Below, piece after piece: positions 16,766 to 37,850 of a stretch of 64,000 nt of DNA. The notes below the pieces were generated by a model that saw only the letters and a list, made by a program, of their open reading frames with translations, was not told the DNA's origin and did not search any database. The number at the start of each line of letters is the position of its first letter. Position 1 is the first letter of the stretch. Origin of the DNA: a virus; the IMG/VR virus record IMGVR_UViG_3300027749_002876, positions 434,001-498,000 of that record; one strand, written 5' to 3'. The position numbers were made by a program, and so were the translations under genes.

Positions 16766-17518
16766 TTATGGGTGCAAGGTGCTATAGGTAACTGCACCAG
16801 CGTTTGTAACTGTGAGAGCATTATTACTCGTATCAGTTATATAAGTACCAGCAGATGCAACTGCTAACAATAATTGAGTTGAAGTGCCTGTGATTGTCGC
16901 ACTAGGTGAACCGTTGATATTGGCGCTTTGTGTAGCAGTTAGAGGCGTAGTTGACGGTGTAAAGTTTGAAGTATAAACTGCCAGCCCCTTAACAATTCTC
17001 ATGCTGGTCATGTAACCATTGAATGGGTTATTGTTTTGATTGGCACTCCATCCAATTTCTAAACTTCTATTGGTGTTGGAATTATACACACTGGTAGAAG
17101 TCAATACCGAGATGCCACCCACATACACTGTGACTGTGCCACTGGCCCTAACCAAAGCAACATGTTGCCATATTCCTGCTGTGACAACTCCATCGGAACT
17201 ACCAGGGTATGCACTGCCACTATAATAATTGAGTTTGCCATTATTGTTGAGATCAAGATTGTCACTATTGGATCCAAACCACCATAATCTTTGACTTACA
17301 GTGACTGACGTAGGATTTATCCAAGTTTCTACGGTATAATCACCGGTGCCAAAAGCAAATGCAGACCCTGCTGTAACAGAAGAAATTACTAATTCATTAT
17401 TGGCACCTGCGTTAGTTCCATTAAAAAATAAACTGCCGGTAAATGAAGAAATACTATCAGTAGTTAATGAAATGCCTGGTCCAATGTTAATTCCTCCACC
17501 AATTTGTATTCCTGCCAT
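16766..17518 (-). CDS. virion protein with LamG-like domain
   Basis: 250 residues. N-terminal IQIGGGINIGPGISL motif as in the protein at 4496, then a concanavalin/LamG jelly roll (GSLFFNGTNAGANNELVI, FGTGDYTVETWINPTSV, WQHVALVRASGTVTVYVGG, GYMTSMRIVKGLAVYTSNFT). It closely resembles the LamG segment inside the 1498-residue fibre. Carbohydrate binding is a family-based inference. Confidence 0.75.
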   Translation of the reverse strand: MAGIQIGGGINIGPGISLTTDSISSFTGSLFFNGTNAGANNELVISSVTAGSAFAFGTGDYTVETWINPTSVTVSQRLWWFGSNSDNLDLNNNGKLNYYSGSAYPGSSDGVVTAGIWQHVALVRASGTVTVYVGGISVLTSTSVYNSNTNRSLEIGWSANQNNNPFNGYMTSMRIVKGLAVYTSNFTPSTTPLTATQSANINGSPSATITGTSTQLLLAVASAGTYITDTSNNALTVTNAGAVTYSTLHP

Positions 17519-17936: not shown

Positions 17937-17944
17937 GATAAATA
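17937..17944 (+). promoter_or_regulatory. T4-type late promoter
   Basis: GATAAATA, then about 19 bases of leader with AGGA before ATG 17969. Confidence 0.7.
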
Positions 17945-17968: not shown

Positions 17969-18874
17969 ATGGAATTCAGTGGAATGACAATAAGTGGTGG
18001 GGTTTCTATTGTGCCTCCCCCTCCCTCAAATAAGGCTATATTTGGTTATGGTTATCCCACCTATTCAATAACTAACTTAGTATCAATCACAGGTGTAGTT
18101 GCTACTAATACAACTGGTGTTGGTACCGGTAGACATGGTTTAGCAGCCGCAACTTATGGTACTGATAAAGCTATATTTGGTTATGGTAATGACACTAATA
18201 TCAGGCTATCAATGACCAATCTTGTATCAAATACAGGTGTAGTTGCTACAGATACAACAGGTGTTGGTACTGCTAGAAATAATTTAGCAGCCACAGGTTA
18301 TGGCACTGATAAAGCTATTTTTGGTTATGGATATATTGGCTCAGCTACATCAATAACTAATCTAGTAAGTAATGCAGGTGTAGTAGCAACTGATACTGCA
18401 GGTGTTGGCACTGCTAGGTACGCAAGAGCAGCCACAACTTATGGCAGTTCTGGACAAGCTATATTTGGATATGGTAATGGTCCTGTATCAGTAACCAATC
18501 TAGTATCAAGTACAGGTATAGTAGCTACTGATACAACCGGTGTTGGTACCGCTAGATCCGACCTTGCTGCCGCAGGGTATGGTACCGATAAAGCTATTTT
18601 TGGATATGGCGCCACTAGCAGTAATACTGCAATAACTAATCTAGTAAGTAACACCGGCGTAGTCGCAACTGACACAACAGGTGTAGGCACTGCTAGGAGT
18701 AGTCTAGCAGCCGCGGGGTATAGTAGTGATAAAGCTATTTTTGGATATGGTGATAATTCAGGTGCTTTATCAATGACCAATCTAGTAAGTAATACCGGTG
18801 TTGTTGCTACTGATACTGCAGGTGTCGGTACTGCTAGATTGGCGTTAGCAGCCGCAAGTTACGGCCTCAGTTAA
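17969..18874 (+). CDS. KAIFGYG-repeat protein, six repeats
   Basis: 301 residues. After a shared start (EFSGMTISGGVSIV, then PPPPSNKAIFGYG) come six repeats of about 45 residues. Each has AIFGYG, a variable stretch of 4-9 residues, then TNLVSNTGVVATDTTGVGTA and a short LAAAGYG link. Repeats of this size suggest a beta-propeller or beta-prism virion protein, with the variable stretches forming exposed loops. First of three paralogues (also 19154 and 20912). Receptor binding is inference. Confidence 0.75.
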   Translation: MEFSGMTISGGVSIVPPPPSNKAIFGYGYPTYSITNLVSITGVVATNTTGVGTGRHGLAAATYGTDKAIFGYGNDTNIRLSMTNLVSNTGVVATDTTGVGTARNNLAATGYGTDKAIFGYGYIGSATSITNLVSNAGVVATDTAGVGTARYARAATTYGSSGQAIFGYGNGPVSVTNLVSSTGIVATDTTGVGTARSDLAAAGYGTDKAIFGYGATSSNTAITNLVSNTGVVATDTTGVGTARSSLAAAGYSSDKAIFGYGDNSGALSMTNLVSNTGVVATDTAGVGTARLALAAASYGLS

Positions 18875-18901
18875 AAATACAATTAACTTATTAGAGTTAG
18901 A

Positions 18902-18909
18902 GATAAATA
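18902..18909 (+). promoter_or_regulatory. T4-type late promoter
   Basis: GATAAATA, then AAAGGAG and ATG 18932. Confidence 0.7.
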
Positions 18910-18931
18910 CATTATCATAAAGGAGAATATA

Positions 18932-19147
18932 ATGATAGACTTAGAAAACATGCCTGCTCCAACACAAGAGCAAATCGCAGAAGCAAGAGAAAACGCATTC
19001 AATGCAGAGCATCCAGCATCATGGACATGGAATGAAGAAGCAACTTCATATGTTGCTCCAGTAAGTGTTCCAAATGATGGCTATCCTTATTTATGGGATG
19101 AAGCTACAACTAATTGGACACCATTTCCAGATTATCCTAGAGAGTAA
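18932..19147 (+). CDS. small virion-associated protein, 71 aa
   Basis: Starts MIDLENMPAPTQEQIAEARE. The Trp/Tyr/Pro-rich C-terminal part (NDGYPYLWDEATTNWTPFPD) resembles short tail-fibre accessory proteins of T4-like phages, by my recollection. Lies between two KAIFGYG proteins and precedes the second by six bases, so the two are probably co-expressed. Confidence 0.6.
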   Translation: MIDLENMPAPTQEQIAEARENAFNAEHPASWTWNEEATSYVAPVSVPNDGYPYLWDEATTNWTPFPDYPRE

Positions 19148-19153
19148 TCTTTA

Positions 19154-20101
19154 ATGCAATTCAGTGGAATGACAATATCGGGTGGGATAACGGTAGTTTA
19201 TATCCCTCCTCCCTCAAACAAGGCTATATTTGGATACGGCGTCAATAATGCCGATAGTATGGTTTCAATTACAAACCTAGTATCAAACACTGGTGTTGTT
19301 GCGACTGATACTGCAGGTGTCGGTACTGGTAGGCGAAACCTAGGCGGTGCAGGTTATGGTACTGATAAAGCTATCTTTGGATATGGGCAAACTAGTAGTT
19401 TATTATTCTCACTGACCAATCTTGTAAGTAATACAGGAGTAGTTGCCACAGATACAGCAGGTGTTGGTACTGCTAGAAGTAATCTTGCGGCTGCTGGGTA
19501 TGGTGGTGATAAAGCTATATTTGGATATGGGGCAAATCTCAATCAAGATGTGATGTATTCATTAACTAATTTGGTATCAAACACTGGTGTAGTTGCTACA
19601 GATACTACAGGCGTTGGTACTAGTAGATTCCAACTGGCAGCCGCAGGTTATGGTACTGATAAAGCTATCTTTGGATATGGGTACAATAGTAGTTTTACTC
19701 CACTTTCAATTACTAACCTAATAAGTAATACCGGTGTAGTTGGTAATGATGTTACTGGTGTTGGAACTGCTAGAACTGCACTAGCGGCTACTGGATATGG
19801 CACTGATAAAGCTATTTTTGGATACGGATACGCAGGAGGCGTTCAATCAATAACTAACCTAGTATCAAATACAGGCGTAGTGGCCAGTAATACAACAGGT
19901 GTAGGTACTGCTAGATATAACCTTGCGGCCGCAGGTTATGGTGTTGATACTGCTATTTTTGGATATGGAGTTGGTCCTGCAAGTCCACCGTATCTATCAA
20001 TGACCAACCTAGTATCAAACACAGGGATAGTCGCAACAGATACCACAGGTGTAGGTACTGCTAGATACGGATTGGCAGCCGCTAGTTACGGGTTATCATA
20101 A
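19154..20101 (+). CDS. KAIFGYG-repeat protein, six repeats
   Basis: 315 residues, paralogue of the protein at 17969: start QFSGMTISGGITVVYIPPPS, then six AIFGYG repeats with variable stretches such as VNNADSMV, QTSSLLF, ANLNQDVMY, YNSSFTPL. The scaffold segments are nearly identical at protein and DNA level between repeats and between genes, while the post-GYG stretch differs every time. Same proposed role as its paralogue. Confidence 0.75.
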   Translation: MQFSGMTISGGITVVYIPPPSNKAIFGYGVNNADSMVSITNLVSNTGVVATDTAGVGTGRRNLGGAGYGTDKAIFGYGQTSSLLFSLTNLVSNTGVVATDTAGVGTARSNLAAAGYGGDKAIFGYGANLNQDVMYSLTNLVSNTGVVATDTTGVGTSRFQLAAAGYGTDKAIFGYGYNSSFTPLSITNLISNTGVVGNDVTGVGTARTALAATGYGTDKAIFGYGYAGGVQSITNLVSNTGVVASNTTGVGTARYNLAAAGYGVDTAIFGYGVGPASPPYLSMTNLVSNTGIVATDTTGVGTARYGLAAASYGLS

Positions 20102-20133
20102 ACCCTAAAAATTTTTACTCACACAAATTAGCT

Positions 20134-20164
20134 AATAAATATCTCTATACACAACCTATAGAGA
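20134..20164 (+). promoter_or_regulatory. late promoter with 5' stem-loop
   Basis: AATAAATA (20134-20141) is followed directly by TCTCTATA (20142-20149), a 7-base loop and TATAGAGA (20157-20164), an 8-bp hairpin at the mRNA 5' end. The 3' arm contains the purine-rich ribosome binding region of the gene at 20171. Confidence 0.55.
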
Positions 20165-20170
20165 GAAAAA

Positions 20171-20839
20171 ATGGCATCAAATCTAAATTCAGAATTTAAC
20201 TACCGTTACCAGGTGATCGGTTCAACACCCTGGGAAAAAATCAAAACACTTCAAGGCTTCTATGTAGGTCGCAAACGAGCGGCCGTACTAGAAGAAGTGG
20301 CTGAATTAAAATATCAAGCTAAACTTGAAGAACTAAAACATCTAAAAACAGTTCCAGCACTACCGCATATTATGCTTAATCTACAAGCAGAAATCATTGA
20401 GTTGGAATCACACTTGGATGACCAAAAACATGCTTTCGAACTTAATCGCAAAGAGATTAAAATATTAGAAAAATACATGGCTGAACTTTATGCTGAAGTT
20501 GAACCAACAAGACTTAAGCATCCAGATGGTACACCGTATACCGATGATGAGATGTTTGAAGCTAATGCTAACTATGAATTCACAGTCACAGTTGGTCGTG
20601 AGATTCAATCGGAAATCATTGCAATGGGTAGACCTAGTCCAGCTAAACTACTCAATGCTATGAGTAATCCACAAACATTAAATTCATTAATGCAAATTGG
20701 TCTTGTACCACAAGGTACTATATTACTAGAGCAGAAAGATATTATGTTAGAATTAACTAATCAATCAACTACAACAGTAATGGATGCACCAAAAGAATTA
20801 GAAAGTAACACTTCTAAGAAGAAAACAAAGAAAAAGTAA
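20171..20839 (+). CDS. coiled-coil phage protein, 222 aa (tail or scaffold accessory?)
   Basis: Largely helical: residues 25-110 are a long charged coiled coil (EELKHLKTVPALPHIMLNLQ, AEIIELESHLDDQKHAFEL), with a Lys-rich tail (SKKKTKKK). Lies between KAIFGYG genes behind a late promoter and ends at a terminator, so it is probably structural or an assembly chaperone of the repeat proteins. No family recognised with certainty. Confidence 0.55.
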   Translation: MASNLNSEFNYRYQVIGSTPWEKIKTLQGFYVGRKRAAVLEEVAELKYQAKLEELKHLKTVPALPHIMLNLQAEIIELESHLDDQKHAFELNRKEIKILEKYMAELYAEVEPTRLKHPDGTPYTDDEMFEANANYEFTVTVGREIQSEIIAMGRPSPAKLLNAMSNPQTLNSLMQIGLVPQGTILLEQKDIMLELTNQSTTTVMDAPKELESNTSKKKTKKK

Positions 20840-20856
20840 TAGTATAATACTTACAG

Positions 20857-20885
20857 AAAAGAGGCTCACTATGAGCCTTTTTTTG
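20857..20885 (+). terminator. intrinsic terminator
   Basis: AGGCTCA (20862-20868), CTA loop, TGAGCCT (20872-20878) followed by a run of T. The T run touches the next late promoter. Confidence 0.88.
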
Positions 20886-20892
20886 ATAAATA
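20885..20892 (+). promoter_or_regulatory. T4-type late promoter
   Basis: GATAAATA immediately after the terminator T run; GAAGGAAG precedes ATG 20912. Confidence 0.65.
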
Positions 20893-20911
20893 AGTTGAAG
20901 GAAGATATATT

Positions 20912-21283
20912 ATGTCAATAACGATAACAGGTGGTTTTACATTGGCTGGTGGTGGATGGACTGTTGCTCCCGCACCACCTACAGGTAATAAAGCTATCTT
21001 TGGATACGGTAGCAATGGATCTAATGTGTCAATGACTAACCTAGTAAGTAATGCAGGTATTGTTGCTGCTGACACTACTGGAGTAGGTACTGCTAGACGT
21101 TATCTAGCAGCCGCAGGTTATGGTACTGATAAAGCTATATTTGGTTATGGAACTATTGCTGGTAATCTTGGGGATACCTATTCACTAACTAACCTAGTAT
21201 CAAACACGGGTGTAGTAGCTACAAATACTGCTGGTGTAGGTACTGCCAGATACAGCCCTTCGGCTGCAGCCTACAGCTCATAA
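20912..21283 (+). CDS. KAIFGYG-repeat protein, two repeats (short paralogue)
   Basis: 123 residues: start SITITGGFTLAGGGWTVAPA, then only two AIFGYG repeats. It shares scaffold and DNA similarity with the six-repeat proteins at 17969 and 19154. Could be a contracted copy produced by recombination between repeats, or a functional short form. The reading frame is intact with its own late promoter. Confidence 0.7.
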   Translation: MSITITGGFTLAGGGWTVAPAPPTGNKAIFGYGSNGSNVSMTNLVSNAGIVAADTTGVGTARRYLAAAGYGTDKAIFGYGTIAGNLGDTYSLTNLVSNTGVVATNTAGVGTARYSPSAAAYSS

Positions 21284-21357: not shown

Positions 21358-21672
21358 ATGAAATATCTACTACTCGCCGTATCCTTAGGAATAACAAACA
21401 TCTCCTATTCGCAAAAACTAGAACAAACAATAAAAGCTGAATTACCTTGTTATGATACAACAGAACTCTTTAAAAGTCTTAGAGAGAAATTCAAAGAACT
21501 ACCTTTACTAACAGGCAAAGCAGATGATGAAGCAAACTCAACAATGAGTCTTTGGTTGAATCCTGTTGATAACAATTGGACAATAATCGCAACTAAGAAA
21601 GAACTAAGTTGTGTTGTTGGAGCTGGAACTGATATGAAAATTATCTCAACCAGAAAAGGAACAAATGTATGA
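21358..21672 (+). CDS. secreted phage protein, 104 aa
   Basis: Signal peptide MKYLLLAVSLGITNISYSQ, then a mature part with two cysteines (LPCYDTTELF and KKELSCVVG) that could form a disulfide in the periplasm. Overlaps the DD-peptidase gene by four bases (ATGA), so both periplasmic products are co-translated. I recognise it as a common but unnamed phage protein. Confidence 0.7.
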   Translation: MKYLLLAVSLGITNISYSQKLEQTIKAELPCYDTTELFKSLREKFKELPLLTGKADDEANSTMSLWLNPVDNNWTIIATKKELSCVVGAGTDMKIISTRKGTNV

Positions 21673-22406
21673 TTAAAAAACTGTTAGTAATATTAACACT
21701 GGTAACAAGTTCTGTATATGCTGACCAAACATTAACAGCACAAGCTTGGCTAGTAGCCGATCACAATGGAAAAATACTTGAAGGTTCCAACACAACAGAA
21801 ATTCGTAGTATAGCAAGTATCACTAAACTAATGACTTCAATGGTTGTACTAGATGCAGGACAATCACTCACAGAAATCATTCCAAAAAAATTATACAACA
21901 AGCAACTAACCAGAGAAACACTAATTGATTTGGCAATTGTAAAATCAGACAACAATGCTGCCAAACTATTATGTGATTACTATCCGGGAGGATATGACAG
22001 TTGTATCATAGCAATGAATAACAAAGCACATTCATTACAAATGAATCAATCAACATTTACTGATCCAACTGGCAGGATGCATACAAATGTAAGTACTGCG
22101 GAAGATTTGATTAAGTTAGTATTTGCGGCAAGTACATACCCACTCATAGTTCAAGCAAGTAATATGGATGCAGTACGTTGGAACGTCAATAAGAAGAAAA
22201 ATGTTGAGTTAAGAAACACTAACACTTTAGTAGGACATGGTTATAAATTCCTAGTCAGTAAGACAGGATTTATCAACAAAGCAGGTGGATGTATCGTTAT
22301 GATGATTGATACTGTATATGGTATCAGAACAGTTGTATTGTTAGGAAGTAAAAATACAAAGACCCGTATCCCTGAAGCACAGATGCTATCGCAGGTTATT
22401 CGATAA
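21669..22406 (+). CDS. periplasmic D,D-peptidase (PBP5/PBP7-like, S11 family)
   Basis: 245 residues with a signal peptide (MIKKLLVILTLVTSSVYA) and the full serine DD-peptidase triad of motifs: SITK (Ser50, Lys53), SDN (93-95) and KTG (198-200). It lacks the C-terminal domain of PBP5, so it is closer to PBP7-type endopeptidases. It would trim peptide stems or cross-links of peptidoglycan in the periplasm. A role in remodelling the wall during infection or in lysis is inference. Confidence 0.85.
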   Translation: MIKKLLVILTLVTSSVYADQTLTAQAWLVADHNGKILEGSNTTEIRSIASITKLMTSMVVLDAGQSLTEIIPKKLYNKQLTRETLIDLAIVKSDNNAAKLLCDYYPGGYDSCIIAMNNKAHSLQMNQSTFTDPTGRMHTNVSTAEDLIKLVFAASTYPLIVQASNMDAVRWNVNKKKNVELRNTNTLVGHGYKFLVSKTGFINKAGGCIVMMIDTVYGIRTVVLLGSKNTKTRIPEAQMLSQVIR

Positions 22407-22665: not shown

Positions 22666-22862
22666 TTTTTCCAAAGTATAAAGTTTATGTAATCGGATTC
22701 AGTTTCAAAATAGAAATCATATAATCCACCATCACGTCCAGCTGGTACTACACAATCATAGCCCCAATCATTAACACAGTTTCGCTGACACCAATCGATG
22801 ACGGGTTTTAGTTCCCCATAACCAATTGTGATTCTAGTCTTGTATTGAGTATTTGGTGACAT
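22662..22862 (-). CDS. small phage protein, 66 aa (paralogue of 63020)
   Basis: Has a DWC motif (VIDWCQRNCVNDWGYDCV) and ends DFYFETESDYINFILWKK. The ending is the same pattern as DEKDYIHFMLRWR in the gene at 63020, where a WCVDTFG segment also occurs. A small family duplicated within this genome; function unknown. Confidence 0.6.
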   Translation of the reverse strand: MSPNTQYKTRITIGYGELKPVIDWCQRNCVNDWGYDCVVPAGRDGGLYDFYFETESDYINFILWKK

Positions 22863-23334
22863 TCACACCGCCTTGTTCTAAAAATTCTAATCCTCTACTA
22901 TCTCTATATGCATCACGATAATAAATCTGTTTGATACCAGATTGATATATAGCTTTTGCACAATGGATACAAGGAGCATGTGTCACAAATAATGTAGCAC
23001 CATCACTAGATTCAGTACTTGCGGACACTTTTGAAATTACATTCATTTCTGCGTGGAGTACCTCATCCTTAGTAACTAGTCGATATCTACGATTACTTTC
23101 TACAGTAATATCATATTCTTCAAATGGATATAGTTGTCCGTCCCAATTATCACCGGGCATGTATTCTTTATATTCACATTCGTTAGTCCATCCAGTTGGC
23201 ATACCATTGTATCCTGTACCTAGAATTTTGTTACCTTTAACAATAACAGCACCGACATTTAATCTAATAGCACTACTTAACTTACTAGTTAGTTCAGCTA
23301 TATCCATGTAATAATTTATAAATTTTTGTTTCAT
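22834..23334 (-). CDS. deoxycytidylate (dCMP) deaminase
   Basis: 166 residues with the zinc and catalytic signature of cytidine-deaminase-fold dCMP deaminases: HAEMNVISK (His and catalytic Glu) and [13 protein letters not shown] (two Cys ligands), plus [19 protein letters not shown]. Converts dCMP to dUMP for dTTP synthesis. The T4 homologue is gp cd. A second ATG at residue 10 ([11 protein letters not shown]) is possible because the first start overlaps the ferredoxin stop. Confidence 0.92.
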
Positions 23335-23660
23335 TCAATAATTTCAATGCGTTTGTTTGGTATACCATCATATTCACTTGCATCAGGTAATGGTGATTTC
23401 TTTTTAGTAATGACTGACCATTTATTACTAAGTCGTACATTAACATCGAACCAATATTGATTTTCAACTGGATCTTTAATATCTTCCTGTGCTACAATAG
23501 CATTGACCGGACATTCAGGGATGCATACTGCACAATCAATGCACTCATCAGGATTAATTACAAGGAAGTTAGGTCCTTCATAAAAACAATCTACTGGGCA
23601 AACATCAACACAGTCTGTGTGTTTACATTTGATACAATTCTCTGTAACTAAGTGTGTCAT
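23331..23660 (-). CDS. fdxA: 7Fe-8S ferredoxin (FdxA family)
   Basis: 109 residues. Nine cysteines in the FdxA arrangement (Cys9, 12, 17, 21, 25, 40, 43, 46, 50; motifs [19 protein letters not shown] and [16 protein letters not shown]). The family carries one [3Fe-4S] and one [4Fe-4S] cluster and is a cytoplasmic electron carrier. Very close to proteobacterial FdxA, so acquired from a host. Neighbours are dCMP deaminase and small unknown genes; an electron acceptor such as the radical-SAM QueE at the right edge is only a guess. Confidence 0.93.
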
Positions 23661-35900: not shown

Positions 35901-37796
35901 TTAATTAGATTCTTTTACTTCCGCATCAACTACATTGTCATTAGCATTCTTTGCTTCTGTAGCTTCTTTGGCTTTTTGTTCCTCATCATATTTGATTTTT
36001 GTGATGGGACTAATTGCTTCGTATAAGTCTTTGATTTTGTTTTCAATTTCTTCTACGTCTGTTCCAGCTAATGCAACTTCCAATGCATCAATGCTATTAG
36101 ATGCTTTTTCTTTTTCTTCTGCTGTAACACTATCTCCGTGCTTCTCGTAGTCTTTACGGAAACTGTTCAATGTTGATTCGCCGTTATTTTTTGCTTGAAT
36201 AAATTTAACTTGTTTGGCATCAGATTCAGCATTTGCTTCAGCATCATTAACCATTTGTTGAATTTCTCTTTCAGTTAGTCCTGAATCAGATTTGATAGTA
36301 ATCTTATTCTCTTTGCCTGTACCTTTATCTTTGGCACTTACATTAAGAATACCATTTGCATCAATATCTAACGTGACTTCAATTTGAGGAACACCACGCA
36401 TTGATGGAGGAATGCCCTCTAAATTAAATTCACCTAATATCTTATTGTATGTAAACAAATCACGTTCACCTTGTGCAACCTTAATAGTTACTGCAGGTTG
36501 ATTGTCTTCCGCTGTACTAAACACTTGACTATGCTTAGTTGGGATAGTTGTATTCTTCTTAATCAATTTAGTGAATACACCGCCACTTGTTTCAATACCC
36601 AAACTCAGTGGTGTCACATCCAATAACAATACGTCAGTGCGTTCACCGGCTAATACACTACCTTGAAGTGCCGCACCTGCCGCCACTGCTTCATCAGGAT
36701 TAACATCTTTGCGTGGTGCCTGACCAAACAACTTCTCAACTGTTTCTTGTACTTTGGGCATACGTGTCATACCACCAACAAGAATAACCTCATCAATGTC
36801 AGCAATTTTAACACCGGCATCTTGTATAGCTTGTTGACATGGTTTGATACTACGTTGAATCAATTCATCAACTAACAATTCTAATTTAGCACGACTTAAT
36901 TTAACATTTAAGTGTTTAGGTCCACTAACATCGGCTGTGATATATGGCAAGTTAACATCTGTTTGAGCACTACTACTTAACTCAATCTTTGCTTTCTCAG
37001 CCGCATCTTTCATCCGTTGCAATGCCAATACATCTTTGGTTAAGTCAATACCGTTGTCTTTCTTAAACTCATCAACTAAGAAGTCCATGATACGTTGGTC
37101 AAAGTCTTCGCCACCTAAGAACGTATCACCATTTGTTGATAATACTTCAATTTGTGTTTCACCATCAACATCTGCTAATTCAATAATACTTACATCAAAT
37201 GTACCACCACCTAAGTCATAAACAGCAATCTTACGGTCCGTTTTATCTTTTTTATCTACACCATATGCTAGTGCAGCCGCAGTAGGTTCGTTGATAATAC
37301 GCAATACTTCTAGTCCTGCAATACGTCCTGCGTCTTTAGTTGCTTGACGTTGGCTATCATTGAAGTAAGCTGGAACTGTAATAACTGCTTGAGTAACTGT
37401 TGTACCCAAATAGTCTTCAGCAGTCTTTTTCATCTTACGTAATACTTCAGCACTGATTTGCGGTGGTGCTAATTTTTGCCCATTAGACTCAACCCATGCA
37501 TCGCCATTGTCTGCCTTAATGATTTTGTATGGCATCAAGTCAATATCTTTTTGAACCGCTTGTTCTGTGAACTTACGACCAATCAATCGCTTGGCAGCAT
37601 AGATTGTATTCTTTGGGTTTGTAACTGATTGACGTTTGGCACTTGCACCTACTAATATCTCATCATTGGCATAGGCAACGATTGAGGGTGTAGTTCTTGC
37701 ACCTTCACTGTTTTCAATTATTTTGGGGATTCCGTTTTCAATAACGGCTACGCAGGAATTTGTGGTTCCGAGGTCTATTCCAATTACTTTGCTCAT
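35901..37796 (-). CDS. dnaK: molecular chaperone DnaK (Hsp70)
   Basis: ATG 37796 ([20 protein letters not shown]) with AAAGGAG is preferred over an in-frame start 51 bases upstream. 631 residues, full length: ATPase domain with [23 protein letters not shown] and [10 protein letters not shown]; linker DVTPLSLG; substrate-binding domain; acidic tail. No dnaJ or grpE is visible, so host co-chaperones are presumably used. The late promoter and structured leader suggest expression during virion assembly. Confidence 0.97.
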
Positions 37797-37801
37797 TTTT
37801 T

Positions 37802-37850
37802 CTCCTTTATAAAGCAAGATTCTAATTTCAGACCCGATAATCGGCATCTG
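37802..37850 (-). ncRNA. structured 5' leader of dnaK (homologous to hsp20 leader)
   Basis: Hairpin 37829-37850: outer arms CAGA/TCTG, TG bulge, inner arms CCGA/TCGG, TTA loop, single G on the 3' side, then CTTGCTTTATAAAGGAG before the ATG. Same shape as the hsp20 leader with compensating stem changes. Confidence 0.6.

Follow-up and report, generated by a model that had tools for sequence, protein, structure and literature searches.

Six-bladed Kelch-fold propellers with a variable face, predicted in many copies in one phage genome, as candidate virion-displayed binding proteins

The window analysed here is a stretch of 64,000 nucleotides, spanning positions 434001-498000 in a virus record of 524,565 bp from a giant phage, and it carries three genes of a repeat family that numbers 17 genes in the whole record, 14 of which lie outside the window and were missed by the first-pass annotation. 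Computation on the sequences gives this copy number, a nearly constant count of six repeats per gene, variable sites on an otherwise constant scaffold, and an N-terminal anchor shared with proteins of other kinds. The fold predicted for the six-repeat proteins is a propeller, and we think it reasonably likely that these six-bladed Kelch-fold propellers with a variable face are late, virion-displayed binding proteins of different specificity.

The three window genes are on the plus strand and are present exactly as the first-pass annotation had claimed, with 6, 6 and 2 KAIFGYG repeats. Propeller gene 1 (17969..18874, 301 aa) consists of the anchor MEFSGMTISGGVSIVPPPPSN followed by six repeats, and gene 2 (19154..20101, 315 aa) has the anchor MQFSGMTISGGITVVYIPPPSN and again six repeats; gene 2 was modelled, and the Kelch fold of gene 1 is predicted from that model. 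The two-repeat gene (20912..21283, 123 aa) has an anchor of the MSITITGG type, and both its start and its end are intact. The N-termini are as had been described (SGMTISGG in the two long copies, an ITITGG-type start in the third), and the repeat, given earlier as about 45 residues, measures 45-50 residues in these genes and 44-53 residues across all 17 genome copies. The loop of 4-13 residues after AIFGYG, which was said to differ in every repeat, does so throughout the genome, where 98 of 98 loops are distinct. Each repeat follows the consensus SITNLVSNTGVVATDTTGVG and runs from strand B (KAIFGYG) through the variable BC loop, strand C (TNLVSN), the strand D region and RxxL to strand A (LAAAGYG). 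Its 14 in-register DNA copies are far beyond chance, and the genome holds 62 exact matches to the degenerate KAIFGYG motif and none to the reversed pattern. Between genes 1 and 2 lies the gene of a 71-aa protein beginning with MIDLENM (18932..19147, plus strand), which is weakly related to phrog_7759, and a close relative of this protein also sits between propeller genes in L341.

The 17 genes fall in six neighbourhoods of the record: two around 218-220 kb, five at 270-278 kb, one at 287 kb, four at 358-362 kb, those of the window at 452-455 kb, and two at 512-519 kb. Exactly six repeats were counted in 16 of the 17 copies, the two-repeat gene of the window being the sole exception. Relatives from IMG/VR were gathered in three ways, with a six-repeat protein query, with a two-repeat protein query and with a DNA pattern for one repeat motif, the last of which makes no selection for repeat number, and the repeats per ORF were counted with a profile of single repeats. 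Six repeats were found in 169 of the 187 distinct complete ORFs, 12 in one, 18 in two, and two to five in 15, and none of these ORFs has 7-11; the pattern scan alone gave six repeats in 117 of 130. Because 12 or 18 repeats occur and 7-11 do not, multi-domain proteins are built from complete sets of six. Of the short ORFs, at least three (L173, L216 and L198) resemble frameshifts or chimeras and their repeat counts were treated as such, and clean 3-, 4- and 5-repeat forms also exist among the relatives. Propeller repeats were also seen within a 3587-residue open frame in L118 (contig IMGVR_UViG_3300027733_000040), so the domain is also part of giant proteins.

The first-pass annotation had left the choice between propeller and prism to structure prediction. 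AlphaFold2, run on gene 2 with 65 sequences, gave an all-beta six-bladed propeller (mean pLDDT 90.9, pTM 0.85), and a Foldseek search of the PDB with this model returned KLHL12 as the best match (E = 7.4e-14), followed by Keap1, KLHL3 and other Kelch domains, with TM scores by target length of up to 0.86 for Kelch domains; a beta-prism was ruled out by the propeller model together with these matches. The model is a closed ring of six four-stranded blades. Strand B (KAIFGYG) comes first in the genes and strand A (LAAASYG) last, the gene 2 model has strands at 23-30 and 308-312, and the C-terminal A strand would close the ring by completing blade I. In Keap1 the C-terminal strand also completes the first blade (PMC4668279), and the substrate or binding face of Kelch domains is formed jointly by their BC and DA loops (PMC4668279, PMC6720452). 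Each six-repeat gene would encode one closed Kelch-fold ring, whose first blade is completed by the C-terminal strand LAAA(S/G)YG.

The phage proteins share with KLHL12, Keap1 and KLHL20 the predicted fold of six four-stranded blades, the C-terminal A-strand closure and the BC/DA binding face, but they have no BTB domain and their repeats are nearly identical in scaffold. The sequence signature of Kelch repeats is absent from the consensus, which has IFGYG where strand B should end in a double-glycine motif and lacks both the conserved Tyr of strand C and the conserved Trp of strand D. This accounts for the lack of Pfam hits: no Pfam Kelch model matches the window proteins, and PF24681 touches only 2 of 65 family members (best E 2e-4). 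Judged by the model, the proteins are of the Kelch fold and not of the Kelch sequence family. The symmetric six-bladed Kelch ring is also that of SAKe (8pjw, 8pjt), which is man-made, whereas the phage scaffold is natural, near-symmetric and equipped with variable loops. The propeller lectins PLL/PHL of Photorhabdus, which have seven blades, show weak sequence resemblance (E 4e-4 to 1.6e-3) and were not among the 50 structural matches listed; the seven-bladed PLL lectin family was set aside, since its matches are weak and in sequence only and the structure indicates Kelch.

Over 1010 repeats the scaffold columns are near-constant save for two sites, the loop after FGYG and the pair of residues within RxxL. 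The loop is of 2-18 residues and reaches 3.7 bits per position, and the two hypervariable RxxL residues, a site that the first-pass annotation had missed, reach 3.6 and 3.5 bits; the remaining positions after the loop stay at or below 1.8 bits, save for 2.2 at the loop edge. Overall, 911 of the 1010 loops are distinct, and they are rich in S, T, G, N and A and almost never contain Cys, Lys or Glu. In near-identical orthologue pairs 0.6% of the scaffold differs, compared with 1.9% of the loops and 3.0% of RxxL, in small numbers and from pairs that are not independent. By analogy with Kelch topology, the variable stretch of the predicted propeller is expected to be the BC loop and RxxL to lie in the DA loop, both exposed on the binding face; burial of the variable stretches, which had been named beforehand as evidence against a receptor-binding role, was not found. 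Both termini, and hence the N-terminal anchor, should be on the face opposite the variable loops, as deduced from the strand alternation of this topology. In the arrangement that we propose, selection would keep the scaffold constant while 12 short stretches, the six BC loops and the six RxxL pairs, vary and are gathered on one face. The diversified loops are best read as serving a binding role, and from this we infer receptor binding, with host surface glycans or proteins as the presumable target.

The way in which the propellers may be mounted is suggested by their N-termini. A profile built from these (anchors such as MADIVFSGVNFSGGFAITAPPP) was searched against the ORFs of the sampled regions and matched only three others, namely an FN3 and glycine-rich protein (E = 6e-13), a protein with three LamG domains (E = 9e-7), and the LamG (concanavalin A-like) gene of the window (16766..17518, minus strand, E = 4e-5), and the weakest match scored 17.7 bits compared with 7.8 bits for the best shuffled N-terminus. 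By inspection, LamG-type sequence and propeller repeats also occur together in one protein in L129 and in L205. The N-terminal peptide of about 20 residues could thus be a docking anchor, on the face opposite the variable stretches, that is common to other, lectin-like heads (LamG, FN3) of the same phage.

The motif GATAAATA, which we take to be of the late type solely from its likeness to the T4 late promoter TATAAATA, stands on the plus strand at 17937..17944, 32 nt upstream of gene 1; at 18902..18909, 30 nt upstream of the 71-aa gene, possibly with a transcript shared by gene 2; and at 20885..20892, 27 nt upstream of the two-repeat gene. Seven propeller copies have it 26-32 nt upstream, and it also precedes the genes of the tail tube and the head-tail adaptor; it is absent directly before the major head protein gene, and some propeller copies lack a motif of their own and would rely on readthrough. 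The propeller clusters adjoin the major head protein gene and sit among the tail sheath, tube and adaptor genes, and the major head protein shares 64-67% identity with its counterpart in jumbo phages such as PA5oct. Taken together, the late-type motif, the neighbouring structural genes and the anchor common to LamG and FN3 proteins suggest late synthesis of the propellers and their display on the virion, where they would form a set of binding proteins that differ in specificity.

Several other genes were observed in these surroundings. Next to the window cluster is encoded a protein that resembles D-alanyl-D-alanine carboxypeptidases (Peptidase S11) and has an apparent signal peptide (21669-22406, plus strand). 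A propeller gene elsewhere has as its neighbour the gene of a 467-aa protein that combines long Asn/Thr-rich repeats with an apparent signal peptide (L089:4532-5935, minus strand; genome 286032-287435). The minus strand of the window also carries a dCMP deaminase-like gene (22834-23334), a ferredoxin-like protein with 4Fe-4S motifs and a DUF3470 tail, which is possibly a phage-carried metabolic gene (23331-23660), and a full-length Hsp70/DnaK-like chaperone gene (35901-37847; Pfam HSP70, E 1.5e-255).

The high DNA identity between scaffolds had been taken earlier as the basis for loop swapping and for repeat-number change by unequal recombination. This identity is about 75% and is mostly explained by protein conservation, with a fourfold-site identity of 0.55 for repeats of one gene and 0.54 for repeats of different genes, compared with 0.38 expected at saturation by overall codon use. 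These values indicate that selection on the protein is the main force keeping the scaffold constant, and that a repeat is no closer kin to the others of its gene than to those of other genes. Loop swapping within the genome was accordingly not borne out, since all loops are distinct and two repeats of the same gene resemble each other no more than repeats of different genes do. Changes in repeat number are real, though rare. Close relatives do differ, L185, L217 and L147 having 6 repeats where L405 and L406 have 5, with blade 4 missing, so the lack of variation that would have spoken against the idea was not found. Another gene has 6 repeats in L405, including an exact 141-bp duplicated blade, and 5 in L406, with one copy of that blade, for which an assembly collapse is possible; a tandem pair of 3- and 4-repeat genes in L341 corresponds in pieces to one six-repeat gene of L017, with a hybrid third blade; and L060, L123, L135 and L158 have near-identical blades inside one gene. 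The first three cases are what would be expected if repeat number itself were the variable, with blades continually added and removed by unequal recombination and the two-repeat gene as one functional state, but we regard this as very unlikely, since exactly six repeats are found in 90% of the complete ORFs and none has 7-11, and the fourfold identity in this genome is no higher within genes than between them. The earlier claim therefore stands for single cases and not for a general mode of diversification. We propose that new specificities would arise by whole-gene copying followed by in-place divergence of the loops, and that unequal recombination would now and then remove or add a blade, non-six forms being seldom kept.

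This leaves the two-repeat gene, for which an origin by recombination, as first proposed, is plausible, and which is probably the result of an internal deletion of four blades. An alternative that would be compatible with the six-bladed reading is that its protein is functional as a homotrimer forming a six-bladed ring, in the manner of the Ralstonia lectin RSL, whose six-bladed propeller is a trimer of monomers with two sheets each (PMC10306066). The arithmetic of two times three fits, the start, end and upstream motif of the gene are intact, and the protein models badly alone (pLDDT 43 with 21 sequences), although the low value may stem from the shallower alignment. However, the only clean two-repeat ORFs are the window gene and L104, and their anchors are unrelated, so there is no conserved two-repeat lineage and deletion is the simpler reading; moreover, 4 and 5, which also occur as clean repeat numbers, do not divide six. 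We consider the trimer improbable.

Two further explanations concern the function of the whole family. The propellers may be virion decoration or structural spacers, bound through the anchor to head or tail, in which case the variety of the loops would be relaxed drift at sites of no consequence to the fold, and not the outcome of selection for binding. Loops rich in S, T, G, N and A would fit unconstrained turns, the clusters adjoin head and tail genes, and the absolute number of orthologue loop differences is small, but drift alone does not explain 16 retained full-length copies, nor an RxxL pair that is hypervariable amid conserved positions and lies on the same predicted face as the BC loops. 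The near-absence of Cys, Lys and Glu in the loops is a bias that also argues against drift, although low charge may be compositional, and we find this explanation rather unlikely. An intracellular role in the host, such as that of a protein-protein adaptor or a counter-defence factor, is suggested by the protein-binding adaptor role of eukaryotic Kelch domains and appears to us very unlikely, as the anchor is common to surface-type LamG and FN3 proteins, the neighbours are virion genes, the motif is of the late type, and the proteins of about 310 aa contain no other domain.

In a search of a viral structure library the best match was an unnamed phage protein, and this protein, UniProt A0A6J7XFV6 from uncultured Caudovirales phages, is 66% identical over its full length and has the same predicted fold, which places it in the same family; it is uncharacterised, neither named nor described. 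Among 50,697 GenBank phage records, tblastn with three queries and blastn returned no relatives, with the low-complexity filter as a caveat, and cultured-phage relatives were set aside on this ground. A pattern scan of bacterial genomes gave single matches without a repeat, except for one repeat-bearing ORF (L328:3-923), a six-repeat ORF cut by the contig start in a contig of a binned prokaryotic genome; this may be a phage contig binned with its host, and thus a possible host clue. None of the papers searched contains the string 'AIFGYG', and literature searches on phage Kelch adhesins and on the designed SAKe scaffolds turned up nothing directly relevant. As the window propeller proteins have no Pfam family match and no informative PHROG, standard phage annotation is blind to this family.

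Phage receptor-binding proteins diversified by diversity-generating retroelements likewise combine a constant scaffold with variable surface residues. Here, however, no match to reverse transcriptase (PF00078) was found in the record, which is possibly incomplete; such a retroelement was set aside on this basis, and the diversity is stored in many gene copies. We tentatively raise the possibility of a germline-like repertoire, in which 16 closed propellers with 96 different blades, twelve hypervariable stretches per ring on one face, and an exchangeable anchor that also bears LamG and FN3 heads would give virions of mixed specificities without a diversity-generating retroelement. If the binding role is true, the family would be a natural, near-constant six-bladed scaffold with antibody-like variable loops and many copies per genome. 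The propeller scaffold is present in hundreds of IMG/VR phage stretches, and comparing the copies could tie loop sequence to phage target choice.
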